A stretch of DNA of 59,545 nt, taken from NCBI RefSeq assembly GCF_003201205.1, contig NZ_QICN01000015.1, positions 1 to 59,545 on the forward strand, written 5' to 3'. Position 1 is the stretch's first letter. Each line of letters opens with the position of its first letter. Origin of the DNA: Sinimarinibacterium flocculans (lineage in GTDB: Bacteria > Pseudomonadota > Gammaproteobacteria > Nevskiales > Nevskiaceae). This document shows, piece by piece, positions 96 to 55,464 of this stretch. Under the pieces are notes generated by a model. That model had not been told where the DNA came from, did no database searches, and was given only the letters and a program-made list of their open reading frames with translations. The translations under genes were made by a program, and so were the position numbers.

Positions 96-1950
96 CCAGT
101 GCGTTTTGCAGCGCCCGGAAGATGCCGACGTAGTCGACGATCAGGCCGGACTCCTTGCCCGGTGCCACGCGGTTGGCGCGGGCGATGGTCTGCATGAGCG
201 TGTGCGCCCGCATGGGCTTGTCGAGATAGATCGTGGAACAGGTCGGCACGTCGAAGCCGGTGATCCACATGGCACACACGAACACCAGCCGCAGCGGGTC
301 GTTTTCGTCCTTGAACCTATCGTCCAGCTTGTCCTTGAGCATCCGCTGGCGATGAGGCGTGATGTCCAGGCCCCTCTTCTTCAGCTCCTCAACTTCGTTC
401 TGGCCCTGGCTGACGATGACGGCCATGTCCGTGGCTTCCATCACCGTGATGCGAGCAATCAGCACCTCTCGGTCGTCGCCCTTGGTCTGCGCCAACTCTG
501 CCTTGAGCCGTGCAATCTCATCCTTCCAGTGCGACCTCACCTTGTCGTACATCCGCACGGCGGTTGCCTTGTCGATGCAGACCATCATCGCCTTGCCGCG
601 ATAGCCACGGCCAGTGAAGTGCGCCACCACGTCCTTGGCGATGACCTCCAGCCGGTCCTCGCGGGTGATGATGTGGTACTCGCGGCCGAACTCCCGCTCC
701 AGTTTCTTCTCTTGGTCCTCGTCCAGCTCCGCGGATTCGAGCAGGGCTTCCAGGTCGCGGTTGAGGTCTTGGTTGGTGAGCTGCACCTCGGGGATGCGGT
801 TCTCGTAGTACAGCGGCACCGTGGCCCCGTCTTCGATGGACCGCACGAAGTCGTAGACACTCACGTACTCGCCGAAGACCTCGCGCGTGCGCTCGTCGTC
901 GCCCTTGATCAGCGGCGTGCCGGTGAAGCCGAGGAAGCCGGCATTGGGCAGCGCGTTGCGCATGTTGAGCGCGAAGATGTCGTACTGGCTGCGGTGTGCC
1001 TCGTCGGTAATGACGATCACGTCGGACCGATCGGAAAGCGGCGGGTATGCCTTGCCCGGCTCGTTCCGGAACTTCTGAATCAGCGTGAAGATGTAGCGCT
1101 CGTTGCCGCGCAGCAGTTCCTGCAGATGCTCGCCGCTGCTGGCCCGCACGTCCTCGCGTGCCGTGGCACCGGTGGCCTTGAAGGTCTTGCTGATCTGGTC
1201 GTCCAGTTCCTCGCGGTCGGTAACGATCACGAAGCTCCAGTTGCCCTTGAGCTTGCGCAGTACCTTCTGCGTGAAGAACACCATCGACAGGCTCTTGCCC
1301 GAGCCCTGCGTATGCCAGAAGACGCCCAGGCGCTTGCGCTCCTTCTCGTTGGACTCGCGCAGTTCCGCCAGCCGTGCGATGGCACGGTTCACGCCGAGGA
1401 ACTGGTGGTTCTTGGCCGTCTTCTTGATCAGGCCGCCACGGCCGGCCTCGAAGACGGTGAAGTTCTCCACGTAGTCCAGCAGCTTGGCCGGCGCAAGCAA
1501 GCCGCGCAGCGCGCGTTCCAGCGAAACCTTGCCGACCTCGGCTTCATCGTCCACCCGCTTCCAGTCGAAGAAGTGCTCCCAGGCACCGGTCAGCGTGCCG
1601 ATCTTGGTGTCCGCACCGTTGGACAGCAGGATGAAGGCGTTGGGATGGAAGAGCTGCGGGATGGACTGTCCGCGGTAATCGCGCAGGTTCTTGTCGAATG
1701 CGGTCTTGAGCGGCTCCGCCGGACGCTTCAGCTCGATGAACACCAGCGGCAGGCCGTTGATGAACGCCACCAGATCGCAGCGCCGCCGGTACATATCGCC
1801 CGCCACCCACATTTGCGAGGCGACGAAGTAGTCATTGTTGCCCGGCGTGTTCCAGTCGATCACGCGCAGCGTCTCGGTGGTCTGCCCGCCCTGCTCGTCC
1901 GGCACCGTCACCTTCACGCCGTCCTTGATCAGCGCGTAGACCTCGTGGTT
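96..1950 (-). pseudogene. hsdR: Type I restriction enzyme R subunit, central part (interrupted at both ends)
   Basis: This segment encodes the nuclease and motor core of HsdR, the ATP-driven DNA-translocating subunit of type I restriction systems. Visible motifs are the PD-(D/E)XK-like nuclease region (RRCDLVAFINGLPLVFIELKRP), Walker A (HTQGSGKS), the DEAH-box (ITDEAH), SF2 motif III (GFTGTP) and the late motif QTIARANR. The 5' part of the gene, about 102 codons, lies at 55465-55770, separated by the 53.5-kb transposon. The 3' part is cut at position 95 by an IS3-like element, so the frame ends in IS sequence. As it stands the gene cannot make a functional enzyme. Confidence 0.93.
1946..1950. 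repeat. Target-site duplication TGGTT, left copy
   Basis: The five bases directly outside the left inverted repeat are TGGTT. The same five bases directly follow the right inverted repeat at 55460-55464. A 5-bp duplication is the signature of Tn3-family transposition. Collapsing the two copies restores the hsdR reading frame as codons for V-N-A-N-H-E-V-Y. Confidence 0.93.
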
Positions 1951-1998
1951 GGGGTAATTCCACGGAAGCTCTTCTGAGACGCCAAACGCCCCTGTAAG
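1951..1998 (+). repeat. Left terminal inverted repeat (IRL) of the transposon
   Basis: It starts GGGGTAATTCCACGG and ends TAAG, giving a 48-bp repeat with the GGGG outer and TAAG inner signatures of Tn3-family ends. It matches the right end at 39 of 48 positions, including 27 consecutive bases (1960-1986 against 55424-55450). The mismatches are clustered at positions 3-4, 9, 37-41 and 44. Confidence 0.9.
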
Positions 1999-2041
1999 TA
2001 TCTGTATTTATAGAGATCCGTGGGTGCATTTGCTTCAGCGT

Positions 2042-3190
2042 TTATGCCAGCGTCACGATGAACTTCGGCTTGTCCCCCGCCTCGCGCTTCCAACGCTTTC
2101 CCCCGTGACTACGCCGCCGGGCCTCCCAGGTGACCAAGAACGTCTCTGCCAGCATCAAGCGTTGTACGTAGAGCCGCTCATCCTTGACCAACGCATCGTG
2201 CACTCGCACGTGCGCTGCAGCGTGCTTTCTGGCCACAGGATCTATAACTGCAAGAACGCCCTTCGCGTTCGCAATCGATAACCGGCCCCCAAGCCTTCGC
2301 TGAATGAACCTGGTTACGGCTGGAAATACCCCGTCATAGTCCCAGCCTTGAACTCGGTATTCGGAAATTGAGTCCAGATCGAAGTGGCATCCGACGAGAT
2401 CTTCCATTAGAAAAAGGCTACTCGCCTCTCGGATTTCCGTCGGAACACTCCGCCGCAGTTCCTTGTAGCGTAGCGAGAAGTACGCGTTGCTCTCGTTGGC
2501 CGGGTGATCCATCGGAATCCATAGCTTGGCTAAATGTGCCTTCTTGTAGGCAGTGGATCCCGGTGTGTGCTCGCCACAGAGATAGATACGTTTGCCGCGG
2601 CTCGTTCCTACCCGCCAGCAGACGTTGCACCAGCCAATTGGATGAATCGCTCCTTTTGGCTTTCGTTTCTCGCGGTGAAGAGAGTATCGATTGTATAGAT
2701 GCTGAAGCGCGTCTCCCGCTATTTGCCAAGCGCGCTGAACCCTTTCGGCGTCGACGGAATCGCGGTTGGCATAGCGATCAACCTGCAGTTCGCTTTCGAC
2801 AAATGCGCGATTCCTGCGAATCTCGCCGGGCTTGAACCGTGGGAAATTCTCGCGACTCTGGATGACCAGATCGGCGTACTTGTCGCCTTCGCGGCTGAGA
2901 AACTTGAGCACTTGTTCGATGTGGAACGCCGACTTCCACCTTGATGGGAACCGATCAGCGACTACACCGAACGCCGATTCGATGGTCTCGAAGCGGATGA
3001 GATTCTCATCATCTGGGTTGCGGGCCGCATACGCTGCCCACTTGCGGAGACGGTTTTCGACGATCGTCTTGTCGCAAAAGACTTTCAGTGCGCCATGCCA
3101 CAGCCTGTGGGCGGGAGTGCCCCGCGGATACGCACGCATCTCGATCCAAATGAGCGCAATCAATTCCTTCGTGGCCGGCGAATAGGTCAT
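2042..3190 (-). CDS. Hypothetical protein with a putative zinc-binding CxxC...CxxH motif
   Basis: The protein is 382 aa from ATG 3190; a TTG at 3220 would add ten residues. I do not recognise the family. It is rich in Trp, Arg and Lys. Near the middle it has CNVCWR followed about 13 residues later by CGEH, a spacing that suggests a small zinc-binding knuckle. No signal peptide or membrane segment is visible. It lies just inside the left transposon end, divergent from an AlpA-like HTH gene. That position suggests an accessory gene of the transposon or an older cargo gene, possibly regulated with its neighbour. Function is unknown. Confidence 0.7.
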   Translation of the reverse strand: MTYSPATKELIALIWIEMRAYPRGTPAHRLWHGALKVFCDKTIVENRLRKWAAYAARNPDDENLIRFETIESAFGVVADRFPSRWKSAFHIEQVLKFLSREGDKYADLVIQSRENFPRFKPGEIRRNRAFVESELQVDRYANRDSVDAERVQRAWQIAGDALQHLYNRYSLHREKRKPKGAIHPIGWCNVCWRVGTSRGKRIYLCGEHTPGSTAYKKAHLAKLWIPMDHPANESNAYFSLRYKELRRSVPTEIREASSLFLMEDLVGCHFDLDSISEYRVQGWDYDGVFPAVTRFIQRRLGGRLSIANAKGVLAVIDPVARKHAAAHVRVHDALVKDERLYVQRLMLAETFLVTWEARRRSHGGKRWKREAGDKPKFIVTLA

Positions 3191-3334
3191 GCAGGAGATG
3201 ATAAAACACTTTATTAACAATACTATATGACTTCAAGAGGGAATTTGAAATCTTACTGATCGCTACTCCTAGTTCTTCGGCAAGCTGGCTCCGAGTAGCT
3301 CGGCGTAACCGCTTGTGATCAGGAGAAATCGGCT

Positions 3335-3595
3335 GTGTCGGATGAGGTCCTGAAAATCCAGGAAGTCGCGGCTCTGTACAAGACGACACCTGGTGCGATC
3401 CGTGCGGCTCTCTGGCGCTTTCGCCACCACGGCACCGATCCTGGGATGCCGCTGCCGAGACTGGTTCGCCATCGCTCGGTTTGGCTGCGCAGCGCAGTCG
3501 ATGCACATCTCAAGTCCCTCGCAACGGTCCCGGCAGCGCCCGAAATGACTGTCGACGCTGCTACACCCGTCGTGCGACCCGGAGGTTCCCCATGA
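3335..3595 (+). CDS. Small AlpA/excisionase-like helix-turn-helix protein
   Basis: This is an 86-aa protein from a GTG start, with AGGAG about ten bases upstream. The N-terminal half (EVAALYKTTPGAIRAALWRF, then RLVRHRSVWLRSAVDAHL) has the layout of MerR-superfamily/AlpA-type winged HTH proteins, in which a helix-turn-helix is followed by an Arg-rich wing. Such proteins act as excisionases or local regulators. The C-terminal tail is Pro/Ala-rich. It is divergent from the 382-aa hypothetical gene and followed by a strong hairpin. Assignment is by pattern only. Confidence 0.6.
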   Translation: MSDEVLKIQEVAALYKTTPGAIRAALWRFRHHGTDPGMPLPRLVRHRSVWLRSAVDAHLKSLATVPAAPEMTVDAATPVVRPGGSP

Positions 3596-3858: not shown

Positions 3859-6834
3859 ATGAGACGCAAGTTTACAGAGTTGGAAATGGCGGAGCACTGG
3901 ACGCTGTCGCCTAAGGAAATGGAAATCCCGGCCGGAAAGTCCCGGATCACCAGGCTCGGCTACTTCGTACTGCTGAAGTATTTCCAGTACGAAAACTCAT
4001 TTCCCACCACCCGGCGCGACATCCCAACCGCAGTCGTCGAGGCCATCGGCGATCAGCTGTCGATCAATCCCGCGCTCTTTAGCGAGTACAGACTTGATGA
4101 TCGGACGGCTTCACGGCATCGATCCGCCATCCGAGAGCACCTTGGTGTCCGCGAGGCTACTAACCAGGATGGCCAGCCGCTGATCGATTGGCTCATCGCG
4201 GAGGTGCTCCCCCATACCTCAGACGATCCGACCGTCGAGGCGGAGGTCGACAAGTGGCTCAGGCGCAAAAAGATCGAATCGCCAAGCGATGAACGTATTA
4301 AGACCTACGTCGCAAGCGCAAAGAATAGCTTCGAAAAATCGCTGTACCAGCGCCTGTTGAACGCGCTTCCTGAGGAATGCCTCAATGCCATCGACGCAAT
4401 GCTGCAACTGTCTGACCCGGAGCTGATCGACGGTCAGGGGCCGGACACAGCCGAGATGCCCGACGGTGAAACCGCCCCATTGACCTTCCACCAGATTAAG
4501 AGCGATCCAGGTAGAGCCAGCCTGGAATCGGTCTTTCGCGAGGTCGCCAAGCTCAACAGCATCAAGTGCCTGATGATTCCGGATGCCCCCTGGCTGGCGA
4601 TTCCTCCGCGCGAGCTCGAAGTGCTCAAGCGCCGGACGTCCTCGTACGACTCAAGCGAGTTGCGGCAGCTAACATCGCCGGCCAGGTATGTCTTGGTCGC
4701 CGTCTACTGCTGGCTCCGTCGGCGGGAAATCCTGGATGGATTTGTCGAGCTGCTTGTCAGCCTCATTCACCGTATCGATGTTCGCGCCGAACGCAGAGTC
4801 GAGAAGGAACTGCTCAACGACTTCAAGCGTGTTCGCGGTAAGTCACAGATGCTGTTCAAGATCGCCGAACTCTCCGTCGAAAACCCGGACGGCGTGATCT
4901 CAGATGTCATCTTCCCGATCGTGCCCAAGGACTCGCTTGACGCTGTGGTTAAGGAGTTCAAGTCCGGCGGCCCGGCATTCCGTACCATCGTGCATAAGGT
5001 GATGCGCAACTCCTACAGCAATCACTATCGCCAGATGCTGCCGCGGATGTTGGACAACCTGGTCTTCCGTTCAAACAACACTCTGCATCAGCCGGTCATC
5101 GAGGCACTGGAGATCCTCAGGACATACCGCAATGACCGCTTCCAGTATTTTCCTGACCACGTTGACCTGCGGCTCGAAAGCGTCGTCCCGGCCAAATGGC
5201 GCGATGTTGTTCTCGAAGAAGGAAAGGACGGCAACGAGCGCATCAATCGCATCAACTACGAAATCTGCGTGCTTCAGTCTCTCAGAATCCAGTTGCGTTG
5301 CAGGGAGATTTGGGTTGAAGGCGCAAGGAAGTACGGTAATCCGGACGAAGACCTGCCGAGTGATTTCAACGAACGACGAGCCGACTACTACGCCGACCTG
5401 GATTTGCCGAGCGAATCAAATGACTTCATCAACAAGATTCGCCTGGAGATGGCGGAGGCATTGCAGCAGCTCAACGACGACCTGCCTCGTAATCGATACG
5501 TGAAGCTGCGTGAGGTCGGTATGAACAGGATCGCTTTGGAACCTCTTGATGAGCAGAAAGAGCCAGAGAATCTTCACGCATTGAAGATTGAAATCAACAA
5601 GAAGTGGCCGGCGACAGGCCTGCTCGACATCTTGAAGGAGACCGAGTTCAGAGTTGGAGTGACGGACTGTTTCAAGACCGCTGCGAGCCGCGAGGCCTTG
5701 GAGAAGCCCGCTCTCCAGCGACGACTTCTGTTGTCTCTCTATGGCCTGGGTACGAATACTGGGCTCAAAAGAGTGGTGACCAGCGAGATTCCGGAAAGCT
5801 ACAAAGACCTCGTCTACGCGAAACGCCGCTACATCACGAGAGAGTTCCTTCGCAACGCGATCGGCAAGGTGGTCAACGCGACATTCGCAGCGCGGGATCC
5901 GGAGATCTGGGGAGAAGGCACTACTGCGTGCGCATCGGATTCGAAGAAGTTCGGCAGCTGGGATCAGAATCTCATGACCGAATGGCATATCCGCTACGGC
6001 GGCCGTGGCGTGATGATCTACTGGCACGTGGAGCGCAAGTCGGTTTGCATCTACTCCCAGCTGAAGAAGTGCTCGTCATCGGAGGTGGCAGCGATGATGG
6101 AAGGCGTCCTGCGGCATTGCTCGGACATGGAGGTCGAGAAGAACTACGTCGATAGCCATGGGCAAAGCGCGGTCGGATTTGCCTTCTCGCGGTTGCTCGG
6201 TTTTGAACTGCTGCCGCGGCTGAAGGCAATCAGCAAGCAGCGGCTTTATCTGCCTGGCCCTGGCACGGCTGCGAACTATCCGAAGCTGGCCCCGATCCTG
6301 GCGCGGTCGATTGATTGGGGACTCATCGCTCAGCAGTATGACGAGATGGTACGGTTTGCTTCGGCGATGTCCAATGGGGTCGACGCGGAGTCGGTGCTGC
6401 GCCGGTTCACTCGGGAAAATGCTCAGCACCCCACCTACCGGGCTCTCCAGCAGCTGGGCCTGGCGGCAAAGACCATTTTCCTCTGCCGCTACCTGAACAG
6501 CCTGACGTTGCGTCAGGAGATCCACGAAGGTCTTAACGTGGTCGAGAACTGGAACTCGGCCAACAGCTTCATTTTTTACGGCAAGAGCGGCGAAGTCGCG
6601 ACCAATCGCCTAGAGGATCAGGAACTGTCCGTCCTGTGTCTGCATCTGCTGCAATCGTCCCTGGTGTACGTCAACACGCTGATGATCCAGCGCGTCCTTC
6701 GCGAGAAGCAGTGGCGGCGGCGCCTCAAGCCCGAAGACCTTCGTGCGCTGACCCCGCTGATCTATCTTCACGTGAACCCCTATGGCGAGTTCAAGCTCGA
6801 TATGGGAGACCGCATTCAGATCGAGAGCATGTAG
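3859..6834 (+). CDS. tnpA: Tn3-family transposase TnpA
   Basis: TnpA binds the terminal repeats and catalyses replicative transposition. From ATG 3859 the protein is 991 aa, normal for the family; the frame stays open further upstream but without family similarity. The N-terminal part ([24 protein letters not shown]) is the DUF4158 DNA-binding region. The C-terminal half is the DDE_Tnp_Tn3 catalytic domain, with acidic residues in [21 protein letters not shown] and [12 protein letters not shown]. The motif [20 protein letters not shown] is highly characteristic. The gene reads inward from the left end. No frameshift or stop is seen, so it appears intact. Confidence 0.97.
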
Positions 6835-7564: not shown

Positions 7565-8050
7565 TCAGTGCGCATGCGCGTCCTCCGCCGCGGGCCAGTC
7601 ACCATGGCGCGCGAACACCTGCGTGTGTCCCGTCTCGTCGAACAGCAGCACCTCGTAGGGATCGCGACGTGCGCCGACCTCCATGCCGGGCGAACCGATC
7701 GGCATGCCGGGCACGGCGATCCCCTTGGCCTTCGGCTTGTCCGCGAGCAGGCGCCGGATGTCCTCGGCCGGCACGTGGCCTTCGACCAGATAACCGTCGA
7801 CGACGGCCGTGTGGCAGGAACCGAGCTCGGCGGGCACGCCCAGCCGCGCTCGGACGGGCGCCAGATCGCGCTGCGCCTCGACCCGCGTCGCAAACCCGTT
7901 CGCCTTCAGGTGTTCGACCCAGACGGAACAGCAGTTGCAGGTCGGGCTCTTGTAGACGGTGATGACCGGCGCGCCCTCGGGCGTCGACCTCGAGCAAGCG
8001 GCGGCCAGCAGAACGATCAGGCCGAATGCAGTGAAAGCGATGGTATGCAT
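7565..8050 (-). CDS. DUF411 metal-binding (lipo)protein, copper cassette 1
   Basis: The 161-aa protein has an N-terminal hydrophobic segment ending LLAAACSRS, which fits a lipoprotein signal with lipobox LAAAC, so it is probably periplasmic and membrane-anchored. The mature part is a DUF411 domain: YKSPTCNCCSVWVEHL carries the CxCC metal-binding motif, followed by GSCHTAVVDGYLVEGHVP and AVPGMPIGSPGME. DUF411 proteins occur in copper and other metal-resistance operons and are thought to bind metal; the exact role is not established. It is the last gene of cassette 1, four bases after the cyclase fusion and with an SD of CAGGAG. The C-terminus is His-rich. The counterpart in cassette 2 is at 31461. 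Confidence 0.85.
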   Translation of the reverse strand: MHTIAFTAFGLIVLLAAACSRSTPEGAPVITVYKSPTCNCCSVWVEHLKANGFATRVEAQRDLAPVRARLGVPAELGSCHTAVVDGYLVEGHVPAEDIRRLLADKPKAKGIAVPGMPIGSPGMEVGARRDPYEVLLFDETGHTQVFARHGDWPAAEDAHAH

Positions 8051-8053
8051 GAA

Positions 8054-9079: not shown

Positions 9080-9735
9080 GGCTCCTGCCCCGGCTTGCGT
9101 GCGCGGTACAGCGCGATCGTACCCAGTGGGGTGGCGAAGCGACGCGTCTCCGCGGCCTCGACAATGCCGCCGTCGACCATGAACGCCGGCAGGCGGCCGG
9201 CGACGTTGTCGTCCGTGGTCTCGAAGCCGTCGAGCAACTGCACGAGGATGAACGCGGCGCGCATCAGCGGATTCGCCGCCTTGCCCCAGTGGGCCGCGTG
9301 CAGCCAGCCGCCGGGCTTGAGCACGCGGTGAACCTCGCGCAGCGTCGCCGGCTTGGCATCCCGACCAAGATGGTGGAAGAACAGGCTCGACAGCACGACG
9401 TCGAAGCTCGCGTCGGCATACGGCATGCGGTCGGACATCGCTTCGTCGAAGTGCAAGCCCGCACCCGCGCTTCGCGCCTTGGCGCGCGCACGTGCGAGGA
9501 TGGCCGCGTCACCGTCGAGCCCACGGATCTCGGCACCGGGCTGCGCCTGCTGCGCCGCAATCGTCAGCGTGCCGGTGCCGCAGGCCAGGTCCAGCACCCG
9601 CCCGCCGGGCTGCAGGTTCGCCTGCTGCAGCAGTGCCGACTTGAACGTACGCTCGCGCGTGGCCCATGCGACCACGGGATCGTAGAGCGGCGTCAGCCAG
9701 CGGTACGACAAGGCCGGAATGTAGCGCTCAGTCAT
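9076..9735 (-). CDS. Class I SAM-dependent methyltransferase (UbiE-like)
   Basis: The protein is 219 aa with Rossmann-fold methyltransferase motifs: VLDLACGTGTLTIAAQ (motif I), IRGLDGDAAIL (motif II acid loop), ASFDVVLSSLFFHHL (motif IV) and HRVLKPGGWLHAA (motif VI). The fold is that of UbiE/MenG-like enzymes, but the substrate cannot be read from sequence. It sits between cytochrome c (8-bp overlap) and the cyclase fusion (4-bp overlap), so it is part of the copper cassette 1 operon. It has no counterpart in cassette 2. A role in methylating a metal, metalloid or lipid is only a guess. Confidence 0.85.
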   Translation of the reverse strand: MTERYIPALSYRWLTPLYDPVVAWATRERTFKSALLQQANLQPGGRVLDLACGTGTLTIAAQQAQPGAEIRGLDGDAAILARARAKARSAGAGLHFDEAMSDRMPYADASFDVVLSSLFFHHLGRDAKPATLREVHRVLKPGGWLHAAHWGKAANPLMRAAFILVQLLDGFETTDDNVAGRLPAFMVDGGIVEAAETRRFATPLGTIALYRARKPGQEP

Positions 9736-10312: not shown

Positions 10313-10330
10313 CGTCCTTTCTCCGGTGCA

Positions 10331-14247: not shown

Positions 14248-14256
14248 GAGGCGGCC

Positions 14257-41891: not shown

Positions 41892-46770
<4,879 letters not shown>

Positions 46771-46781
<11 letters not shown>

Positions 46782-47826
46782 GTTCAGCCTCTCCCTTGCC
46801 GAGTTCGGCCTTGAGGACAAAGCTGCCCTCGACAACAACCGACTCACCAGCTTTCAGGCCTTCGAGAATCTCCGCGTTCCGACCGTCGTTGCGACCAACC
46901 CTGACTGGTCGCACTTCAAGCTCGCCGTTGTGCTCGACGAACACCGACGTACTGTCCTCGATCTGCTGCAGTGCAGCGTCGGGCACTGCGACCGAGACGG
47001 CGAACTCACCAATCGCCACATGACCCTGAACGTTGAGTCCCGGCGTCCAAATACCATCGACGTTCTCCAGAAGCACCCTCGCGGTTTGCGATTGCGTTTC
47101 TCGAGCGGACATCGGTGAGACGAAGATCACTTTTCCGAGCGCGCTTAGCGGACCCTCCGCCGAGATCTGTGCGGATTGCCCTACCTGTACCCGCCCCCGG
47201 TCGCGCGGATACAGCGCCAGGTCGACCCAAACGCTGCTAAGGTCGGCCACGACGAACATGGCCTCGCGATCTGCCTGTTCGCCGGGGTTGGTGAAGCGAT
47301 TGATGACCGTGCCATCCAATGGGCTGGTAACAGCGAACGTCCGAAGACTCTCGTTGCTCTCGACCGTGGCCAGCATCGCGCCTTGGCGCACCCGATCGCC
47401 AATACTGACATCAACGCTTCGAACCATTCCCGGGAATCGGGCCGAGACGGCGCGTGTGCGCTCGGCATTGGGGACGACGGCTCCATAGAGCAGCAGCGTC
47501 TCCACCAGAGTGCTGGGTCCGGCCGGTGCGATCGTCAGTCCAGCAGCATCGCGTGCCTCGGGAGTCAACCTGAGCGTTTCGCCGTGCGCAGTTTCCTCGT
47601 CGTGCGTATCGACGTCTGACTGCTTGTCGGTCTCGTGGCGATCCCCCTCCTCATGTTTTTCGGATTCACTGTGAGGGGCGTTTTCGCCATGACTGCGTCG
47701 GTCTTCGTGTTCGTGACCTTGCTCGTCCAGATGGGGCGATCCGTTACTGCCACCGCAGGCGCCTAGCGCGAGTGCGATTAGCGCCGGGACGACGATGAGG
47801 TAACGCTTGGTTGTGTTCATGTTCAT
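46771..47826 (-). CDS. czcB: Periplasmic adaptor of the Czc pump (CzcB-like), lipoprotein
   Basis: The 351-aa protein has a lipoprotein signal (VVPALIALALGACGG). Residues ~30-85 are very rich in His, Glu and Asp (GHEHEDRRSHGENAPHSESE), suited to divalent-metal binding. The membrane-fusion core follows (VSARFPGMVRSVDVSIGDRV, SPLDGTVINRFTNPGEQADR, AEILEGLKAGESVVVEGSFV). It ends GEAEHGH. It connects CzcA with CzcC. Confidence 0.92.
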
Positions 47827-47838
47827 GCGACGTGTCCT

Positions 47839-49098
47839 TCAGCGACTTACGGCCGTAGCAGTAAGTCGCTCGATTTCGATCAGGGTGAGGTGGTACTGCA
47901 TGGCAGCTTCGATCAAGTTGTCACGCACGCTGAGCAGTTCGCGCTGCGCATCAACCAGTTCCAGGTAGCTGTAACGCCCCCGCTCGTAGGCAGACTCAGT
48001 CCCTTTCAGTGCCGCTTCGGTCCGCGGCAGAGCCCGCTCTCGTAATGCACGCACCTGCTGCCCAAGGTCTTGCAGTTCGCGGTGATTGCTAAACAACTGT
48101 GTGCGGGCCTTGAGCAGGGCAGCGCTGCGATTGGCTTGTGCACCCGCCTTGAGCGCCTCCGCCTCGGCCACGGCGCCTTGGTTGCGGTTATTGACCGTCA
48201 GTGGGATGCCCACATTGAAGACGAATGCCGTGTCGTCAATCTCCGCGAGCCGCCTGATGCCCGCGCCGATCTCGATGCCCGGACGCTGGCTGGCTAGGGC
48301 GAGGGTTACCTCGGATTCGCGTAACCGGCGTTCACTCAGGTATCGCGAAAGGTCGGGCGTACGCTCAAGCGCAGCGAGCAGATCCTCATACGCGGAAAGT
48401 TCCGGCAACGCGTACAAGTCGGCGGCGGCTTCCACGAAATCAGGTTGGATCGCGCCCCACGACGCAGCCAGCTCATAGCGCGCTGCGACTAGCGCATGTT
48501 CGGCATGAGCATCAGCGATGCGCGCACGTTCTAAGGCGACCGCAGCCCGATCCCGCTCGGATTCAGGCGATATCGCTGCAGCGACACGACGCTGCACGGC
48601 TTCCGCGGTCTTCTCGGAGAGTTCGACGGCAAGGTGCGTTAGCCGGTGTTGCTCTTGCTGGCCGACCAACTTGACGAACCGCCGCGCCGTCTCCGCGAGA
48701 ATGTCGAGGCGTCTGATCTGACCGTCGATCTCAAGGCCTTCACGGGTGAACTGTGCACTGGTGACTCGCTTGTCCCGCAGGCCATCAAGCTCGATCAGCT
48801 GGCTCAGACCGATCGTCATTTCAGTGGCGTCAAGACCGCGCGTTTCACCAGTGCCAAAAGCGTTCTCAACGTCTGCAGTGATAACCGGATTGGGCCGCAG
48901 GCCAGCCTGTGTGATCCGGCCATCTTGTGCCCTGAGTACGTACTCGTAGGCCGCGAGGTCGGGATTGGACTCCAGGGTACGCGCCAGCGCGTCTCGCAAC
49001 TTGAGCGACGCGCCGCTGGCAACGGACGGATCACTGAAAGCCACCGCAAGCAGAACCACGGGCGCAAGGCGCCCTGCGGCGATGAGTCGAAAAAACAT
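47839..49098 (-). CDS. czcC: Outer-membrane efflux channel of the Czc system (CzcC-like)
   Basis: The 419-aa TolC/OEP-family protein has a signal peptide (LAPVVLLAVAFSDPSVASGA), then LKLRDALARTLESNPDLAAY and RSAALLKARTQLFSNHRELQ. The closing part is RYSYLELVDAQRELLSVRDN. It is the first structural gene of the czcC-B-CDF-A-desaturase operon. Confidence 0.9.
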   Translation of the reverse strand: MFFRLIAAGRLAPVVLLAVAFSDPSVASGASLKLRDALARTLESNPDLAAYEYVLRAQDGRITQAGLRPNPVITADVENAFGTGETRGLDATEMTIGLSQLIELDGLRDKRVTSAQFTREGLEIDGQIRRLDILAETARRFVKLVGQQEQHRLTHLAVELSEKTAEAVQRRVAAAISPESERDRAAVALERARIADAHAEHALVAARYELAASWGAIQPDFVEAAADLYALPELSAYEDLLAALERTPDLSRYLSERRLRESEVTLALASQRPGIEIGAGIRRLAEIDDTAFVFNVGIPLTVNNRNQGAVAEAEALKAGAQANRSAALLKARTQLFSNHRELQDLGQQVRALRERALPRTEAALKGTESAYERGRYSYLELVDAQRELLSVRDNLIEAAMQYHLTLIEIERLTATAVSR

Positions 49099-49150
49099 GG
49101 AAAAACTCCCGACTGCGTGAACGGATGCCCTGATCAGGGCATGAAGGGGT

Positions 49151-49549
49151 TCAGGCGAGGGAGTTCATGGGCGGGCCGCGAGGGGCCGGAGTGAAGAATG
49201 CGGGGCGCGCAGGGTGCAGGACGGGAGGGCCGCGTGGAATGCGAACACTCAGCCAGCCGGCAGACGATGTTGGGTCCAGGCGATCAGGACCGATCAGCGC
49301 AGGCGCGGTATCGCCATCGGGGTCGAGGTATTGCCCAGGGAAGCCGACTGACGTGAGTTCGACTTCCAGGTGATCCGGATGATCATTGGCGTGTTCTTCG
49401 CCGAACAACAACCCGGCGTCAGCGTAGTGTGTGGACTCGTGAACGTGGCCAAGGCTCTCGATGCCCGCACAAACATGCAGATGCAAGCCGAGCAGCCTCG
49501 TTACAACGAGACCCGCGACCAGTGACCAGATGGCAAGAGAGCGAAACAT
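49151..49549 (-). CDS. Secreted His-rich protein ahead of czcC (CzcI-like position)
   Basis: The 132-aa protein has an N-terminal hydrophobic signal, then several His/Asp residues (HLHVCAGIE, HVHESTHYADA, HANDHPDHLEV) and a Pro/Arg-rich end (RIPRGPPVLHPARPAF). It occupies the place of czcI/cnrX-like genes, small periplasmic metal-sensing proteins in front of czc operons. Sequence identity to those is not evident. GGAACC and GTCTAG with a 17-bp spacer (49556-49584, minus) resemble an ECF-type promoter, but no ECF sigma gene is seen. Confidence 0.6.
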   Translation of the reverse strand: MFRSLAIWSLVAGLVVTRLLGLHLHVCAGIESLGHVHESTHYADAGLLFGEEHANDHPDHLEVELTSVGFPGQYLDPDGDTAPALIGPDRLDPTSSAGWLSVRIPRGPPVLHPARPAFFTPAPRGPPMNSLA

Positions 49550-49673
49550 CGAACGCTAGACTACCACGACCCTCGACAGGTTCCCGTTGCGTTGACGATC
49601 GCCGAGATCGACCCGCGGCCGCGAGTGCTGCTGATATCGATTGCCCAGCGCCGACCCTTCGGCACACCGCAGG

Positions 49674-49922
49674 TCACGCGACGTTCTCCCACTGCGGTGA
49701 GAACCGCTGAATCGAGATGCTGCCCATGATCTGCACAACGATCAGTGCCCCGTGCAGCGTCATCAGCAGGACAGGCGCCAAGACGCCTTGAGGGGGAATC
49801 ATCAGTACAGCCGAAGTCGAAACCTCGACCAAGCTGATATGGCGCTTTGCCAGACGATGATGCAACAAGTGCAGCGTTTGCACCGAGATTAAGGCGATCC
49901 AGGTCAATTCAGGTGTGAGCAT
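49674..49922 (-). CDS. Small membrane protein downstream of the CDF gene
   Basis: The 82-aa protein starts at ATG 49922 and overlaps the CDF gene by 14 bases. Hydrophobic segments are ALISVQTLHLLHH and GVLAPVLLMTLHGALIVVQI, with a cluster of His near the first. No family is recognised. The overlap suggests co-expression with the CDF transporter from the CadR-type promoter. Confidence 0.55.
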   Translation of the reverse strand: MLTPELTWIALISVQTLHLLHHRLAKRHISLVEVSTSAVLMIPPQGVLAPVLLMTLHGALIVVQIMGSISIQRFSPQWENVA

Positions 49923-50547
49923 GTCGAACTCCGGTCGTCGCCAGCTCACGGCGAGCTTGGGCGACCACTTGCTGGGCTGCCGAGATTGCCAAAGCACCCA
50001 TGATCCCGGCCACGACTAGATCAGGCCATGCGGTGCCGGTGCCGAATACGCCGATGGCTGCAAGAACGATGGCGACATTGCCGATCGCATCGTTGCGCGA
50101 GCACAGCCACACCGAGCGCATGTTGGCGTCGCCATCTCGAAAGGCGTAGAGCAGCACCGCTACGGCGAGGTTCGACGTCAGTGCCAATACACCGACAACA
50201 CCCATGGTCACCGCGTCCGGGGACACCCCTTGCAGCGCGTTCCAGCCCGCCTGTCCCAAGACATACAGGCCATAGCCACCCATGACCAGGCCCTTGGTCA
50301 AGGCTGCACGTGCTCGTGCGGTCAGCCCCATCGACAGGACGAACAACGAGACGGCGTAGTTGGCCGCATCGCCAAAGAAATCGACTGCGTCAGCGAGCAG
50401 TGCCGCCGATGCGGCATTCCAACCGGCAGCGATCTCCACCGCAAACATCGCCAGATTCACGACCAGGGCCACCCAGAGCACGCGGCGGTACGCAGGAGGC
50501 GGGGGCTGGCGAGAGCTGCATGGGCCGGAGGAACAAGCGTCAGACAT
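49909..50547 (-). CDS. Cation diffusion facilitator transporter (CzcD-like, short)
   Basis: The 212-aa protein starts at ATG 50547 (MSDACSSGPCSS). It has six membrane helices. Helix 2 is SAALLADAVDFFGDAANYAV with the typical Asp residues, and helix 5 region is SVWLCSRNDAIGNVAIVLAA. The C-terminal metal-binding domain is absent. A short Cys-rich N-terminus (DACSSGPC) may bind metal. It is controlled by a CadR-type promoter just upstream and is divergent from the regulator. Confidence 0.85.
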   Translation of the reverse strand: MSDACSSGPCSSRQPPPPAYRRVLWVALVVNLAMFAVEIAAGWNAASAALLADAVDFFGDAANYAVSLFVLSMGLTARARAALTKGLVMGGYGLYVLGQAGWNALQGVSPDAVTMGVVGVLALTSNLAVAVLLYAFRDGDANMRSVWLCSRNDAIGNVAIVLAAIGVFGTGTAWPDLVVAGIMGALAISAAQQVVAQARRELATTGVRHAHT

Positions 50548-50575
50548 GGGGTGCTTGGAATGGAGCGGTGGCGGT

Positions 50576-50606
50576 ATTGCACACCCTGTAGTAACTTCAG
50601 GGTCAA
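50576..50606 (-). promoter_or_regulatory. CadR/PbrR-type promoter of the CDF gene
   Basis: On the minus strand TTGACC (50601-50606) and TGCAAT (50576-50581) are 19 bp apart. The spacer holds the dyad CCCTGAAGT...ACTACAGGG, close to the known Cd/Pb/Zn MerR-operator consensus. The divergent regulator gene begins 15 bases beyond the -35. Confidence 0.85.
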
Positions 50607-50620
50607 GGAGGTGGGTGTGC

Positions 50621-51130
50621 ATGCCCGAGACCTATCGCATCGGCGAGTTGGCGCGCGAACTGTCCGTGCCGGTGGAGACCATCCGCTACTACGAGAAAGC
50701 GGGTTTGCTCGCGCGTCCGGCCCGCAGCTATGGCAACTATCGCCTCTACAATGAGAGTCAGCGCCAGCAGCTTGCGTTTGTGCTGCATTGCCGCGCGCTG
50801 GACATGACGCAGGCCGAAATCCGTCAACTGCTGGATCTGCAGAGCAGGCCAGAGCAAGGCTGCGAAGAGGTCAACCACGTGCTCGATGCGCATATTGATC
50901 ACGTCCTGGTCCGCATTCGAACCCTGCATGCGCTGGAAGCCGAGCTTCGGAAAATCCGGGCCTCCTGCCATGCCGGGGGCACCACAAAGGACTGTGCGAT
51001 CTTGCAGGAACTAAGCGGCACGCGGGCACGTGCATCGCGAATAGAATCGGCCGCGACCCCTCGCGACCGACAGCGTCGTAGCGTAGCAAGTACCCGAGAC
51101 GGACTTGGTCGGTCGCGATGTCAACGCTGA
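50621..51130 (+). CDS. MerR-family Cd/Pb/Zn-responsive regulator (CadR-like)
   Basis: The 169-aa protein starts at ATG 50621. The HTH is YRIGELARELSVPVETIRYY. The metal-binding residues of the CadR/PbrR group are present: Cys in QGCEEVN and the C-terminal pair SCHAGG and KDCAIL. The C-terminal 30 residues are Arg-rich and longer than usual. It should bind the adjacent dyad and control the CDF gene, and probably itself. Confidence 0.9.
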   Translation: MPETYRIGELARELSVPVETIRYYEKAGLLARPARSYGNYRLYNESQRQQLAFVLHCRALDMTQAEIRQLLDLQSRPEQGCEEVNHVLDAHIDHVLVRIRTLHALEAELRKIRASCHAGGTTKDCAILQELSGTRARASRIESAATPRDRQRRSVASTRDGLGRSRCQR

Positions 51131-51236: not shown

Positions 51237-51989
51237 CTAGCCGAACGTGGCTTGCATGAGCTCCCTGAACGCGACGAGATCGCTTCCCTCCGGGACACCG
51301 CCCCAGATCTGCCAGTGAATCAGGTCGTCAAAGACCGCAAGGGCATCGTCGCTTAGCTTCCAGCCGCAGGTCTTGTACGCGTGATAATGACGACCAATCG
51401 GCTGGATCTGGTCAAGCCTGAGAATCGAGGTCTGCGGCCCACCTTCGAGCGGCAGCTGATCCCACATGAACTGTGGGTACTCGCAATGCCGAATCCGATC
51501 GATGAAGCCGTCGTTGAAGCCGGCGCGCGAACCGTCCTTGTCGGCACCGTAGAACGGCGCCACGAGCATTGTTGGGGCGGTCGTCGCGTTCGGCATGCCC
51601 TTGGTGAGCCCGCGATCCACGGTTGGACATTCATCGGAGATGACGATGCACGGGCGGCGCTTGGCGCGGTACGCGGCCCATACCTCGCCAGGCTTGAGCG
51701 GAAGTGCTGCGACCGGCAACGCCGTCACGGGCTTTAACGGTTCGCCTACTTTCAGGGGGGAAACCTTGACGGTCGCGCTGCCGTGCTCGGTAGGCACCGT
51801 TCGGCCAACAGGTTCGAATTGGTAGGGCACCTGATCCGTATGTGCAACGAAGCAATACAGCAAGGCCCCTCGGCACAGCGTATGGCCCTCATCCGGGACC
51901 CACCAGCGCGAAGGGTCCTGGATGATGGCCTGGACGCAGTCGTCAGGATAAGTCCGAACCCTTGCGGGTCGATGATGTCCAGACGTCAT
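51237..51989 (-). CDS. PemK/MazF-like protein, probable toxin partner of the Panacea gene
   Basis: The 250-aa protein starts at ATG 51989 and overlaps the upstream gene by 47 bases. The central part (KPGEVWAAYRAKRRPCIVIS) resembles the first strands of PemK/MazF-fold proteins, with the conserved Arg-Pro after the turn. Later parts (TMLVAPFYGADKDG, FMWDQLPLEGG, LIHWQIWGGVP) are not assigned. It is longer than classical MazF toxins (~110 aa). Tight overlap with a Panacea-domain gene supports a toxin-antitoxin pair. Confidence 0.55.
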   Translation of the reverse strand: MTSGHHRPARVRTYPDDCVQAIIQDPSRWWVPDEGHTLCRGALLYCFVAHTDQVPYQFEPVGRTVPTEHGSATVKVSPLKVGEPLKPVTALPVAALPLKPGEVWAAYRAKRRPCIVISDECPTVDRGLTKGMPNATTAPTMLVAPFYGADKDGSRAGFNDGFIDRIRHCEYPQFMWDQLPLEGGPQTSILRLDQIQPIGRHYHAYKTCGWKLSDDALAVFDDLIHWQIWGGVPEGSDLVAFRELMQATFG

Positions 51990-52734
51990 CGGAGAACTCG
52001 GCCACCAGATTGCCTTCAGGAAGTGCTGGCCCCGCCAGACTTTCCAGCCACGCCACACCCTGTTCAAACACCTCGTCGTATCGGGGTTGATCGAGCTTCA
52101 CGAGCTTCTGGCGACCCGCCGAGCGGGTGCTCGACTGCTCGCGGATCGTCTTGAGCCGTTCCCGTAGCTTCTTCTGTTTGTTCGCTGAAAGCGTCGACGC
52201 GGTATCGGCGACGTCGGCATTTTTAATTGGGCGCGCGCGCGCCTCCAGGGCGAAATCCAGCCTCTGACCCGGCGCGGCATCCAGCATGGGCGCGGTCCGG
52301 TAGACAAAGTCGAGCAATGCCGGCGTGTCTTTGCCGAAGCGATGGACGAGAGGGCGCAGTTCCCGTCGGATGCAGGACGGCAATGAGTTCTCCTTGGCTT
52401 CGAGAAGTCGGTCATCCGACTTCCACCACCGAAACCAGTCCTGACGGTCGCCATAGTCGCTGGCCATGACCTTCTCGTCGGCCTGCACCATTCGCACGGC
52501 AGGTGCGATGCGTGCGTGTACGTCCTGCGCCCACGGTCCGAACTTGTAGAAAGTCCAGTTCGCCCCGGTGAATGTCCGACCCTCCTCGTAGCGTGCGTGG
52601 ATTAGGTCCGCGAGATAGCAGTACTTGAGCAGGTGGATGGGGCCCAGCTGCCGATCAAAAAAATCATCCTCCTGCCCGGCAAGCAGCAGGGCGTACTGGA
52701 GGATCAGATCCGCTTTGGCGGCATCAACGGACAT
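51943..52734 (-). CDS. Panacea (DUF4065)-domain protein, probable antitoxin
   Basis: The 263-aa protein has an N-terminal region, HLLKYCYLADLIHARYEEGR, then FTGANWTFYKFGPWAQDVHA. This is the Panacea/SocA-like signature LLYLAD...G..W..YxxGP. Panacea domains occur in antitoxins paired with many different toxins (PanAT systems). The C-terminal part is charged (KKLRERLKTIREQSSTRSAG). It precedes and overlaps the PemK-like gene, the usual antitoxin-first order. Confidence 0.7.
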   Translation of the reverse strand: MSVDAAKADLILQYALLLAGQEDDFFDRQLGPIHLLKYCYLADLIHARYEEGRTFTGANWTFYKFGPWAQDVHARIAPAVRMVQADEKVMASDYGDRQDWFRWWKSDDRLLEAKENSLPSCIRRELRPLVHRFGKDTPALLDFVYRTAPMLDAAPGQRLDFALEARARPIKNADVADTASTLSANKQKKLRERLKTIREQSSTRSAGRQKLVKLDQPRYDEVFEQGVAWLESLAGPALPEGNLVAEFSDDVWTSSTRKGSDLS

Positions 52735-52811: not shown

Positions 52812-54011
52812 TCACTCTGGCTCGTCTCCGACGTCTTGGTCCGCGACCGTGTTGCTCGATGCATCGTATCGCGATGAGCCGCTGCGGCGGCGCCCGTGAA
52901 CCAGCAGATTCGCCACCTTTCGTCCGACCATCGAGCCCGAGTCTGAGTATCGTACGACGCTCTTCACAGTCCGATGCCCCGTCATCGCCATGGTATCGGA
53001 CAAGGGCACGGCGTTCATGCCTGCCTCTGTCGCGAAGCCGCGCCGCAGGCTGTGGCCGGCAAAATCGCCATTGAGTCCCGCCAGCGACGCGCGTGACTTG
53101 ACGATCTGGCCGACCGAATGCGGCGTCAGCCCGCCACCGAGCGACGCGCCACCGCGATAAAGACGACGAAAGATCGGACCGCTCCGAATCTGGGCGCGAT
53201 CGAGCCACGCACGCATCGCGACCGCCGCCTCGTCGACCACCGGCTTGGGCCCGACGTCGCCGGTCTTGGACCGGCGCATCCTGAACACGGCGCTCCGATC
53301 ATTGAGCCATTCGAGATCCTCGACGAGGGCCGCCGCGATCTCCGAGCGGCGGCGGCCCCCGCTGGCCCACCCGAACAGAAGCAGTGCTCGGTCCCGCAGG
53401 CCCTCCAGTGAATCATCGCAGGTGTCCAGCATCGCATCGAGGGCTTCCTGCGTGGCCGCCGCCTTGGGCTTGGGAGCCTGGCCAAGCTCGAGCGCCAGCT
53501 TGCGACAGTCGGTGAGCAATCGCCGTACCGATGCGTCCTCGGTCGGGCTGATCAACTGCTTTTCGTGGTGCGCCCAGGACAGGATTGCAAGACGGTGGTC
53601 GATCGTCGACATCTTCAACGAACCCAAGCGCGCCTTGAATCGCCCGTCGACGAGAGCCTGGTCGACGGCGGGTGGCATCACCGTTTCGAGTGAGAGCCTG
53701 CCGGCCGTATCCCGCTGCGGCAGGCCGAAGTGGTCGAGCACGAACTGGACGACGATGGCGGACGGTGTGGGCACCGGGAGGGGCTCTCCGAACCGGGCCT
53801 GCGCCCAAGCGCAAACGTAGCGCAGCGCCCGGGCGTAGGTCTCCCAGGTGCTGCTGGGTGTCGCCGCAAGCCGAAATGCCCGCAGCGCCGCTTGGGTACC
53901 GGCTTCGAGGCTGGCACGATCGCTGACGACAACCGCTTCAGGCAACAGCGCGCTCGCGGATCGGGCCGCTGCGAGCAGTGCGTCGCCGGTGATGGAATCA
54001 TCTTCTATCAT
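52812..54011 (-). CDS. tnpS: Tyrosine recombinase TnpS (cointegrate resolution)
   Basis: The 399-aa protein starts at ATG 54011. The C-terminal catalytic domain has the recombinase residues: first Arg in WASGGRRRSEIAAALVED, Lys in RRSKTGDVGP, H-x-x-R in AGHSLRRGFATEAG, His in MTGHRTVKSVVRYSD and the nucleophile Tyr in VRYSD. The N-terminal SAM-like domain (TWETYARALRYVCAWAQARF) binds the core site. In Tn4651-type transposons TnpS resolves cointegrates at a site next to the divergent tnpT, which matches the layout here. Confidence 0.9.
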   Translation of the reverse strand: MIEDDSITGDALLAAARSASALLPEAVVVSDRASLEAGTQAALRAFRLAATPSSTWETYARALRYVCAWAQARFGEPLPVPTPSAIVVQFVLDHFGLPQRDTAGRLSLETVMPPAVDQALVDGRFKARLGSLKMSTIDHRLAILSWAHHEKQLISPTEDASVRRLLTDCRKLALELGQAPKPKAAATQEALDAMLDTCDDSLEGLRDRALLLFGWASGGRRRSEIAAALVEDLEWLNDRSAVFRMRRSKTGDVGPKPVVDEAAVAMRAWLDRAQIRSGPIFRRLYRGGASLGGGLTPHSVGQIVKSRASLAGLNGDFAGHSLRRGFATEAGMNAVPLSDTMAMTGHRTVKSVVRYSDSGSMVGRKVANLLVHGRRRSGSSRYDASSNTVADQDVGDEPE

Positions 54012-54045: not shown

Positions 54046-54080
54046 ATAAGTTTCGATAAATATCCATTATCGAAACTTAT
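54046..54080. repeat. Perfect inverted repeat, probable TnpS recombination core (res/rst site)
   Basis: Two 14-bp arms (ATAAGTTTCGATAA at 54046-54059 and its exact reverse complement at 54067-54080) flank the 7-bp spacer ATATCCA. The arms plus short spacer have the format of tyrosine-recombinase crossover sites. It lies in the 105-bp region between divergent tnpS and tnpT, where the Tn4651 resolution site is located. Confidence 0.85.
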
Positions 54081-54116: not shown

Positions 54117-55142
54117 ATGCGTCCTGGCGTCACTTTGGAAGATGTCACCCGAGCGGCCGATTTGCTGCTCGAAAAAGGCGATCGGCCGACCATCGAGGGA
54201 GTGCGCGGCGTGCTTGGCACCGGGTCGCCAGCCACCGTCAACGCCCATCTCAAGGCTTATTACCAAGCACTGCCGGCGCGCCTGAACCTGCCGGCGCCGA
54301 TCGCGACGGCGGCCGCTCAGCTCTACCAGAGCATCCGGGATGCCGCACAGGTCGAGGTCGACCAGATCGAGGGTGAGCGTCGCGCTGCCCTGGACGCCGA
54401 TCGCGCAGCGCTTGAGGGCGAGCGCCGCACTTACGAATCCGAGAAAAACCAGTTGCAGGCGCAGGCCACCGCACTAGCCGCGGACTTGGCTGTAGCGCGC
54501 GATCAGGTTTCGGCCAGTCAGCGCCAGTTGGCCGCGCTTCAGGTGCAGATTGCGGACGCCTTGCGCGCCGTCAGCGCCGCCGAGGCCCGTGCGCAGGCGG
54601 CGATTGAAGAGCGCGACCGCGCGGCGCGCAAGCATCAGGAGGAGATTGAGCAGTTGCGCGCCCGCGCCGACGGCAACGAGCGACACCTGCTGGGCCAGAT
54701 CGACGAGCAACGGACCCAGAACCGCCGCCTGATCTCCGAGCGTGAAAAGGAGCAGGCGGCAAGCGCCAAGCGGATTGCCGATCTGGACGCGGCGATCGCG
54801 CAGTTCTCAAAGGACCTCGCGGAGCAGCGCAAGGACGCAATCCGCCTGTCGGCCGAGCTGTCGCGAGAACAGCGCGCGCGATCGGTCGCAGAAGCTTCGT
54901 TGGGTTCCGCTGCGGACGCGCACGAGCGCGAGCTGGCGTCGCTTCAGACCCAGCGCGACCAACTCCGAGCCGACCGCGATCATGAGCGAGCACGAGCCGA
55001 TCGACTGGCGCACGAGCGCGACGCCGCTGCCGGCGACGCCGCCGGGCTGCGGGGGAGGCTCGAAGGACTCGAAGCGCAACTGGACCGCCTCGTTCCGACG
55101 GCCGCCCGCAGTAAGTCAGGGCGTCCCAAGGCCGATTCCTGA
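54117..55142 (+). CDS. tnpT: TnpT, KfrA-like DNA-binding coiled-coil protein
   Basis: The 341-aa protein starts at ATG 54117 with GGGAG six bases upstream. Residues ~1-110 form a KfrA_N-like DNA-binding domain (VTLEDVTRAADLLLEKGDRP, GVRGVLGTGSPATVNAHLKA). Residues ~110-320 are almost unbroken coiled coil, rich in Ala, Arg, Glu and Gln. TnpT of Tn4651 aids TnpS-mediated resolution by binding the resolution site. Divergent from tnpS across the inverted-repeat site. Confidence 0.88.
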   Translation: MRPGVTLEDVTRAADLLLEKGDRPTIEGVRGVLGTGSPATVNAHLKAYYQALPARLNLPAPIATAAAQLYQSIRDAAQVEVDQIEGERRAALDADRAALEGERRTYESEKNQLQAQATALAADLAVARDQVSASQRQLAALQVQIADALRAVSAAEARAQAAIEERDRAARKHQEEIEQLRARADGNERHLLGQIDEQRTQNRRLISEREKEQAASAKRIADLDAAIAQFSKDLAEQRKDAIRLSAELSREQRARSVAEASLGSAADAHERELASLQTQRDQLRADRDHERARADRLAHERDAAAGDAAGLRGRLEGLEAQLDRLVPTAARSKSGRPKADS

Positions 55143-55289
55143 AGGACGCTGCGAGCCGCCGAGAACGAGCGATAAGGTCAAGGTATGGCTGATTGATATG
55201 CTGGTCCATGACTGGCAGAAACTCAGAGCAGACGGCAGCACATCGGCAATGCGATAGGATTTGAAGTAAATCAATAAGGTATAGATGTG
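55143..55289. other. Non-coding stretch after tnpT
   Basis: About 150 bases between the tnpT stop and the IR-like sequence at 55290. No gene, RNA or clear hairpin is seen. It is part of the right terminal region of the transposon. Confidence 0.5.
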
Positions 55290-55316
55290 TTTGGCGTTTC
55301 AGGAGAGCTTCCGTGG
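55290..55316 (+). repeat. Extra terminal-repeat-like sequence inside the right end
   Basis: These 27 bases match the most conserved part of the terminal repeats (55424-55450) with two mismatches and the same orientation, 134 bases further in. The outer GGGGTAATT-type bases do not follow, so it is not a full end. It could be a second transposase-binding site or a relic of a nested end. Confidence 0.75.
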
Positions 55317-55411
55317 ACGACTTTTTTCGTTTTATCGAGATTTTGTGGATAAGTCGAATCTACGAGCAACGGCATGCGGCAGTCGCACACATTTCTGCTT
55401 AAAAACAGAAG

Positions 55412-55459
55412 CTTAGAGACCTCTTTGGCGTCTCAGAAGAGCTTCCGTGGGATTAGGCC
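55412..55459 (-). repeat. Right terminal inverted repeat (IRR) of the transposon
   Basis: Read inward on the minus strand it begins GGCCTAATCCCACGG and ends CTAAG after 48 bases. It matches IRL at 39 of 48 positions. Bases 3 and 4 are CC instead of GG, which departs from the usual GGGG outer end. Confidence 0.9.
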
Positions 55460-55464
55460 TGGTT
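55460..55464. repeat. Target-site duplication TGGTT, right copy
   Basis: TGGTT directly follows the right inverted repeat and matches 1946-1950. It fixes the transposon boundary to the base. Confidence 0.93.

Follow-up and report, generated by a model that had tools for sequence, protein, structure and literature searches.

The stretch analysed here, hereafter the window, comprises bases 1–59,545 of contig C15 in the draft genome of Sinimarinibacterium flocculans (G000; 4.40 Mb in 39 contigs). Positions 1951–55459 (53,509 bp) form a Tn3-superfamily unit transposon, delimited in this way because terminal inverted repeats lie at both ends and TGGTT flanks them on either side. Very probably this is a complete hybrid element, which entered the host gene hsdR in a single replicative insertion and whose resolution module, the recombinase TnpS with its helper TnpT, came from a lineage other than that of its transposase, TnpA. 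In its logic the element is an ordinary Tn3 transposon whose modules are unusually paired, and the subgroup label Tn4651, attached to it in an initial annotation, is misplaced. That annotation's description of a complete unit transposon with exact ends is borne out by the repeats (39 of 48 positions), by TGGTT on both sides and by a relative with the empty site; the interval it gave, 1946–55464, likewise has exact ends, but includes both copies of the duplication, the element proper being shorter.

The element and the gene it interrupts

58–1950, − strand: C-terminal part of hsdR, the interrupted host gene (Pfam and protein comparison)
1946–1950, no strand: left copy of the 5-bp target duplication TGGTT, present once at the corresponding position of the uninterrupted hsdR in locus L080
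1951–1998, + strand: left terminal inverted repeat (IRL), 48 bp, starting GGGG and ending TAAG
55412–55459, − strand: right terminal inverted repeat (IRR), 48 bp, starting GGCC
55460–55464, no strand: right copy of TGGTT
55460–55770, − strand: N-terminal part of hsdR (Pfam and protein comparison)

Members of the Tn3 family have terminal inverted repeats of about 38–50 bp with GGGG-type tips and produce a 5-bp target duplication. Both features are found here: on recomputation the two 48-bp repeats first reported agree at 39 of 48 bases (33 of the outermost 38), with tips of GGGG on the left and GGCC on the right, and beyond them stand the two copies of the TGGTT duplication, as perfect as had been claimed. 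A simple random model predicts about 1e-5 such pairs of repeats per window.

Pfam places HSDR_N on both sides of the element; the left part of the gene also has SWI2_SNF2 and T1R_D3. Matches to HsdR at E ≤ 1e-100 occur in 4 of 61 genomes, our own included. The insertion in hsdR had been proposed from the outset together with a search for the empty site, which was found in G015, from the same family but a different genus, whose locus L080 holds an uninterrupted hsdR as a single frame of 1152 amino acids. The window's C-terminal and N-terminal pieces are 90% and 79% identical to this protein and abut in L080, one reaching up to 1470 and the other beginning at 1468. On the DNA level, with each flank compared separately to L080 and never joined to the other, the left flank matches at 88% over 1835 bases and the right at 79% over 312 bases of the adjoining stretch. 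The 5-bp target is present once in L080, as AACCG, and once in L081, as AATCA. Since the pieces abut and the target has a single copy, insertion into a formerly continuous hsdR is well supported by these alignments, and having the empty site in sequenced form makes the event clear in outline. The ends, the duplication, the empty site and the open frames with conserved motifs described below are all direct observations. An IS110-type transposase gene (57439–58371) lies outside the element, beyond the start of hsdR.

That the 53.5 kb came together by separate insertions or by mis-assembly, and not as one unit, appears extremely unlikely. The assembly is a draft, the cargo contains internal repeats (27191–27410 and 41591–41815) and the copper genes come in two related sets, all of which would suit such an origin. 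However, the outer ends share a perfect 5-bp duplication for which the intact relative has a single target copy, and a phylum sample of 299 genomes has the repeat core (≤3 mismatches) in our own genome alone, at just three places, all on this contig.

The genome and plasmid searches made yielded no second copy of the element with a different duplication. A search of plasmids for near-identical DNA with segments 1700–26000 and 31000–55700 gave partial matches, none covering 80%; the exact 24-base repeat core was absent from the viral contigs searched, and the DNA of the tnpA end had no match in phages. An Rfam scan returned no match at the gathering score and a tRNA scan none.

Affiliation of the transposase and the repeats

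3859–6834, + strand: tnpA, Tn3-family DDE transposase of 991 amino acids (Pfam PF01526, E 2.8e-128; alignment to Tn4430 TnpA)

The tnpA frame is open from 3625 (1069 amino acids), and its relatives align from about residue 79, which puts the start at about 3859. Its PF01526 domain and its alignment to Tn4430 TnpA place the product in the Tn3 family; acidic residues occupy the positions aligned with the D, D and E of the latter, which we take to be the catalytic residues.

Seven subgroups of the family, Tn3, Tn21, Tn163, IS1071, IS3000, Tn4430 and Tn4651, are named in PMC7157771. The best full-length relatives of the window TnpA are L029, on a contig of a Proteobacteria metagenome-assembled genome (MAG), at 55% and the transposases of Pandoraea plasmids at 53%, with Paenibacillus, Priestia, Desulfosporosinus and others at 47–52% over the full length; cyanobacteria also have relatives, at 49–52%. 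Identity to Tn4651 TnpA is 24–25%, and to the other plasmid yardsticks 19–29% over the matched parts; this range takes in the few that presumably stand for the Tn3, Tn21, Tn163, IS1071 and IS3000 subgroups, an assignment made partly from record lists, and all of these fall outside the clade of the window TnpA. A pattern scan through the genome collection found 20 loci, with full-length matches of up to 55% and partial ones of 267–490 amino acids at 62–67% in five broken or cut relatives, as well as one of 106 amino acids at 78%. Among 50 rows sampled from at least 5000 plasmid records, the identity of matches that span most of the query falls from 42% directly to 25%; six of these rows are Klebsiella plasmids at 47.5%, thus suggesting that the lineage is not rare. 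Within the order, a TnpA of this clade was present at E ≤ 1e-150 in 5 of 85 genomes, our own included, and one of the other four carries a further piece at 60%. No relatives were found in viral contigs.

A quick tree of 41 rows, with support from the SH-like approximate likelihood-ratio test (SH-aLRT) and no bootstrap, was built after removal of frames shorter than 900 amino acids and exact duplicates, and then of the near-duplicates L050 and L070. It places the window TnpA in a clade of 15 rows (SH-aLRT 100) with L029 as its sister (99) and with Pandoraea, Paenibacillus, Priestia and others among the members; a clade of eight Tn4651 rows is the neighbour across long stems, and the row pDK1_118k groups with Tn21. 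When TnpA was forced into the Tn4651 clade, the approximately unbiased (AU) test rejected the arrangement (p-AU 0.000167). Membership of that clade was accordingly rejected, on the identity of 24–25%, on this p value and on a position as sister clade only.

The terminal repeats were scored against the left repeat of the window and against 2000 shuffles, the Tn4651 strings being started two bases early with end gaps free. The observed score was reached by 4 shuffles for Priestia, 5 for a Clostridia MAG and 15 for Aeromonas; for the two Tn4651 repeats it was reached by 1159 and 1210, which is chance level. Repeats of the clade type were found at 8 of 14 scanned loci (L049, L050, L073, L075, L076, L035, L040 and L102), and L111 has a partial pair. 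On these scores, the repeats point partly to the transposase's own clade. The initial annotation had raised the case of TnpA and the repeats belonging to different subgroups; instead both, the repeats partly, go with one clade, which is not that of Tn4651.

It is therefore very unlikely that the element is an ordinary Tn4651-subgroup transposon whose proteins have diverged. The resemblance to Tn4651, from plasmid pWW0 of Pseudomonas putida, is considerable: both are very large Tn3-family elements (56 kb for Tn4651) in which tnpA occupies one end and divergent tnpS and tnpT, with a palindrome, the far end; both have 48-bp repeats that end in TAAG, both TnpT proteins contain a KfrA_N domain, and no named clade in the tree is closer to the window TnpA than that of Tn4651. 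However, the tree and the AU test largely refute this explanation, the repeats are unlike those of Tn4651, TnpS and TnpT are only 28% and 25% identical to their Tn4651 namesakes, and Tn4651, unlike the window element, has xyl genes and a tnpC beside tnpA. Of the label “Tn4651-type”, the part concerning TnpS and TnpT at the far end stands, whilst TnpA and the repeats lie outside Tn4651.

Closer comparisons are found within the transposase's clade. The elements L049 and L050 on Pandoraea oxalativorans plasmids have a TnpA at 53%, repeats that agree at 36 of 38 positions and a 5-bp duplication; they differ in being 6.5 kb long, in having a serine recombinase and in a right end that starts CAGG. 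The Paenibacillaceae loci L030 and L040 have a related TnpA (that of L030 inside the tree clade) and metal cargo, including a P-type ATPase at 30% and a methyltransferase at 50–52% identity to the window gene at 9076–9735, but carry a small tyrosine recombinase directly behind tnpA, and L040 measures 11.5 kb.

A resolution module probably of another lineage

52812–54011, − strand: tnpS, tyrosine recombinase of 399 amino acids (Pfam PF00589)
54046–54080, no strand: probable core of the resolution site rst, with 14-bp perfect arms and a 7-bp spacer, between the divergent tnpS and tnpT
54117–55142, + strand: tnpT, KfrA_N DNA-binding coiled-coil helper of 341 amino acids (Pfam PF11740)
55288–55316, − strand: inner copy of the repeat core (26 of 29 bases) without the terminal GGGGTAATT, between tnpT and the right end

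The arrangement first described, with tnpA at one end and tnpS and tnpT with a palindromic site at the other, is present in full; the module lies about 46 kb, and the palindrome about 47 kb, from tnpA. TnpS has R, HxxR, H and Y motifs, and the KfrA_N domain is common to this TnpT and that of Tn4651. None of 2000 shuffles reached palindrome arms of 12. By eye, six of seven additional intergenic regions between tnpS and tnpT show an aligned counterpart of the form CGATAA-like, seven bases, TTATCG-like; that of Tn4651 shows none. Together, TnpS, TnpT and the palindrome would make up a Tn3-family resolvase with its site.

TnpS is 76% identical to its counterpart in the congeneric G010, 57% to one on contig C1 of our own genome, 46% and 45% to those of Rhodanobacter and Xanthomonas and 28% to that of Tn4651; for TnpT the values are 45% (G010) and 25% (Tn4651), so that both proteins are homologous to the Tn4651 pair but distant. 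A TnpS match at E ≤ 1e-60 was present in 17 of 100 relatives, our own genome included, and the transposase beside tnpS/tnpT in G010 falls with IS1071 in the tree. The pair does not define the Tn4651 subgroup, because it is also reported elsewhere, in several Tn163-subgroup members, and members of the Tn4651 subgroup with TnpR exist; three resolvase types are distinguished for the family (PMC7157771). TnpS and TnpT, with accessory and core palindromes at rst, likewise belong to the Xanthomonadales transposons TnXocp1, TnPsd1, TnSml1 and TnXax1, and the first three of these carry czcCBA (PMC4619425).

Elsewhere in our own genome, contig C1 has a further Tn3 transposase (about 739576–742065) and, some 65 kb away, a second tnpS/tnpT pair (about 805613–806650). 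A search for terminal repeats flanking this pairing, or flanking the loci in G010 and G019, detected none that was convincing.

The resolvases of the transposase's clade were counted over 25 loci, leaving out L050 (a near-duplicate of L049), L039, L042, L043, L045 and L047. Nine have a serine resolvase (L049, L073, L074, L075, L035, L046, L102, L104 and L008) and seven a small tyrosine recombinase behind tnpA (L030, L031, L032, L034, L036, L040 and L111; recognised by motif in L040 and by annotation in L111, and confirmed by Pfam in L030 and L111). A TnpS-type recombinase occurs in L029, where it is 62% identical to Tn4651 TnpS over 91 amino acids. In the remaining eight (L076, L033, L037, L038, L041, L044, L048 and L105), several of which are short or cut contigs, no recombinase was found. 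L104 and L049 have an additional tyrosine-recombinase-like frame further away. Inspection of the tree suggests that the clade changed resolvases more than once. TnpA, and partly the repeats, have one affiliation and TnpS and TnpT another, and because the clade mostly uses other kinds of recombinase the window element looks like a natural hybrid, its resolution module derived from another transposon lineage. We found no description of this TnpA clade paired with TnpS and TnpT in the literature searched, which took in few subscription papers.

The same data could be read to mean that TnpS and TnpT are passengers, or remnants of a trapped second transposon, with cointegrates being resolved by host recombination. 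We regard this as rather unlikely, although it would account for the other kinds of recombinase in 16 of the 17 clade loci where one was recognised, for the proximity of TnpS/TnpT relatives to transposases of other clades, and for the tipless repeat core just beyond tnpT, perhaps a former end of the element or an additional site for TnpA binding. Against it, tnpS, tnpT and the site are intact and lie 0.3–2.6 kb from the right end, the open reading frames (ORFs) of the element that were scanned include no other recognisable resolvase, and the sister TnpA locus, L029, likewise has an adjoining TnpS-type recombinase.

For the hybrid element, the following course of events is proposed. Entry into hsdR would have been one replicative (paste-and-copy) event, in which TnpA, of a lineage apart from Tn4651, acted on both 48-bp ends and staggered the target by 5 bp. 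From what is known of the family this would yield a cointegrate, in which TnpS, aided by TnpT, would recombine the palindromic rst sites, by then present twice, and so separate the replicons. The halves for transposition and for resolution would thus bracket a metal-efflux cargo of about 43 kb. What we infer is that the element is active, and in what sequence it acquired its modules and cargo.

Several points weigh against this account. The nearest named group to the window TnpA is still Tn4651, a sister across long branches, so that the subgroup, if broadly defined, could take it in; the repeats recall Tn4651 too, in their length of 48 bp and their inner TAAG. For the AU test, the rows representing Tn4651 were chosen from the very tree in question, and Tn4430 TnpA was compared pairwise alone, outside the tree. 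The four other TnpA relatives among the 85 genomes of the order are 43–53% identical over the matched part. Likeness of the repeats is marginal for G072 (36 of 2000 shuffles), L040 (86) and the left Pandoraea repeat (92), and no better than chance for the right Pandoraea repeat (964) and Chelativorans (1112), whilst six of the 14 loci scanned (L074, L104, L105, L030, L036 and L033) yielded no repeats of the clade type. The palindrome's counterpart is imperfect in G042 and G038, and by a scripted rule a near-perfect palindrome occurs only in the window and on contig C1. The searches gave no sign of movement, the repeat core being confined to our own genome among the 299.

A wider proposal, which we advance tentatively and hold to be slightly less likely to be right than wrong, is that the clade represents an eighth, unnamed Tn3 subgroup that freely swaps resolution modules, the window element being a hybrid of its TnpA with TnpS/TnpT that has grown several-fold over its delimited relatives. 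If so, transposition and resolution would be independent, exchangeable modules. The element itself, in a clade with three kinds of resolution gene among 25 loci, offers a natural test of whether Tn3 transposases and resolvases are interchangeable.

Size, cargo and neighbouring genes

Eight delimited elements of the clade (L049, L073, L075, L076, L035, L040, L102 and L111; L076, L102 and L111 without matching duplications) measure about 3.1 to 12.9 kb, and the window element is 4–17 times their size. The initial view of it as very large for a Tn3 unit transposon is not sustained for the family, since Tn4651, with about 56 kb between its own repeats on pWW0, already shows large size with modules far apart. 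The cargo, as found by profile scans, comprises the following.

7565–16271, − strand: copper-type cassette 1
17371–23142, − strand: Cus-type RND efflux pump (CusA, CusB and an outer-membrane efflux protein; TIGR00914 at 1329.9 bits, over cutoff, the CusB model below cutoff)
23208–25989, no strand: CopL-like protein, DUF4396 protein, MerR-family regulator and DF-family/MerC-like protein (+ strand)
26390–28273, no strand: degenerate tandem repeat of about 1.1 kb, copies 76% identical
27191–27410, + strand: left copy of a direct repeat (87%) bounding copper block 2
29500–41406, no strand: copper block 2
41591–41815, + strand: right copy of the direct repeat (87%)
43010–50622, − strand: Czc/Ihp-type RND pump and two CDF-type transporters

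Both copper cassettes and the Cus and Czc pumps had been recognised correctly, and a copper P-type ATPase is present as well; two copper-type systems, two metal RND pumps, this ATPase and CDF-type transporters are thereby joined in one movable unit. Cassette 1 encodes a DUF411 protein, a rhodanese, a methyltransferase, a cytochrome c, a multicopper oxidase, an outer-membrane efflux protein, a weakly CopL-like protein, a fatty-acid hydroxylase and an AraC regulator. Copper block 2 has AraC, fatty-acid hydroxylase, cytochrome c, multicopper oxidase, outer-membrane efflux protein, DUF305 and hydrolase genes, together with the P-type ATPase (37122–39488) and CueR (39485–39973), both over cutoff; the two multicopper oxidases score below the cutoff of the copper-resistance multicopper oxidase model. 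With 76% identity over 1.85 kb of DNA, the two cassettes are not a recent duplication. The 87% direct repeats that flank block 2, 14.4 kb apart, suggest that it may have been acquired by recombination; the left one is part of the degenerate tandem repeat. The second CDF gene (49909–50622) scores over the Pfam cutoff and below that of NCBIfam.

A mer-like cluster, also claimed at first, did not hold up: no mercury reductase, MerT or MerB was found among the proteins scanned, which cover part of the element's ORFs, and a mercury operon was rejected, the sole candidates being a MerR-family regulator, which scores under the MerR cutoff, and a weakly MerC-like protein.

Three genes lie nearer the ends of the element.

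2042–3220, − strand: gene of 392 amino acids, divergent from tnpA, no Pfam or PHROG match
51237–52067, − strand: gene overlapping the antitoxin candidate, no Pfam match
51943–52734, − strand: possible SocA/Panacea-type antitoxin gene (SocA_Panacea match below cutoff; four plasmid relatives annotated as SocA-domain antitoxins)

The gene at 2042–3220 has no match in plasmids; a partial relative in G019, at 24% identity, is separated from a Tn3 transposase by some 20 kb. The region 25990–29160 has no plasmid match either; small genes at 28262–28618 and 28661–29158 are found again on contig C1 and in G010, not more than about 13 kb away from Tn3 transposases, and the latter gene also near one in G019. 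The overlapping genes at 51237–52734, beside tnpS, may form a toxin–antitoxin pair, an arrangement which PMC7157771 reports next to resolution sites of Tn3 transposons.

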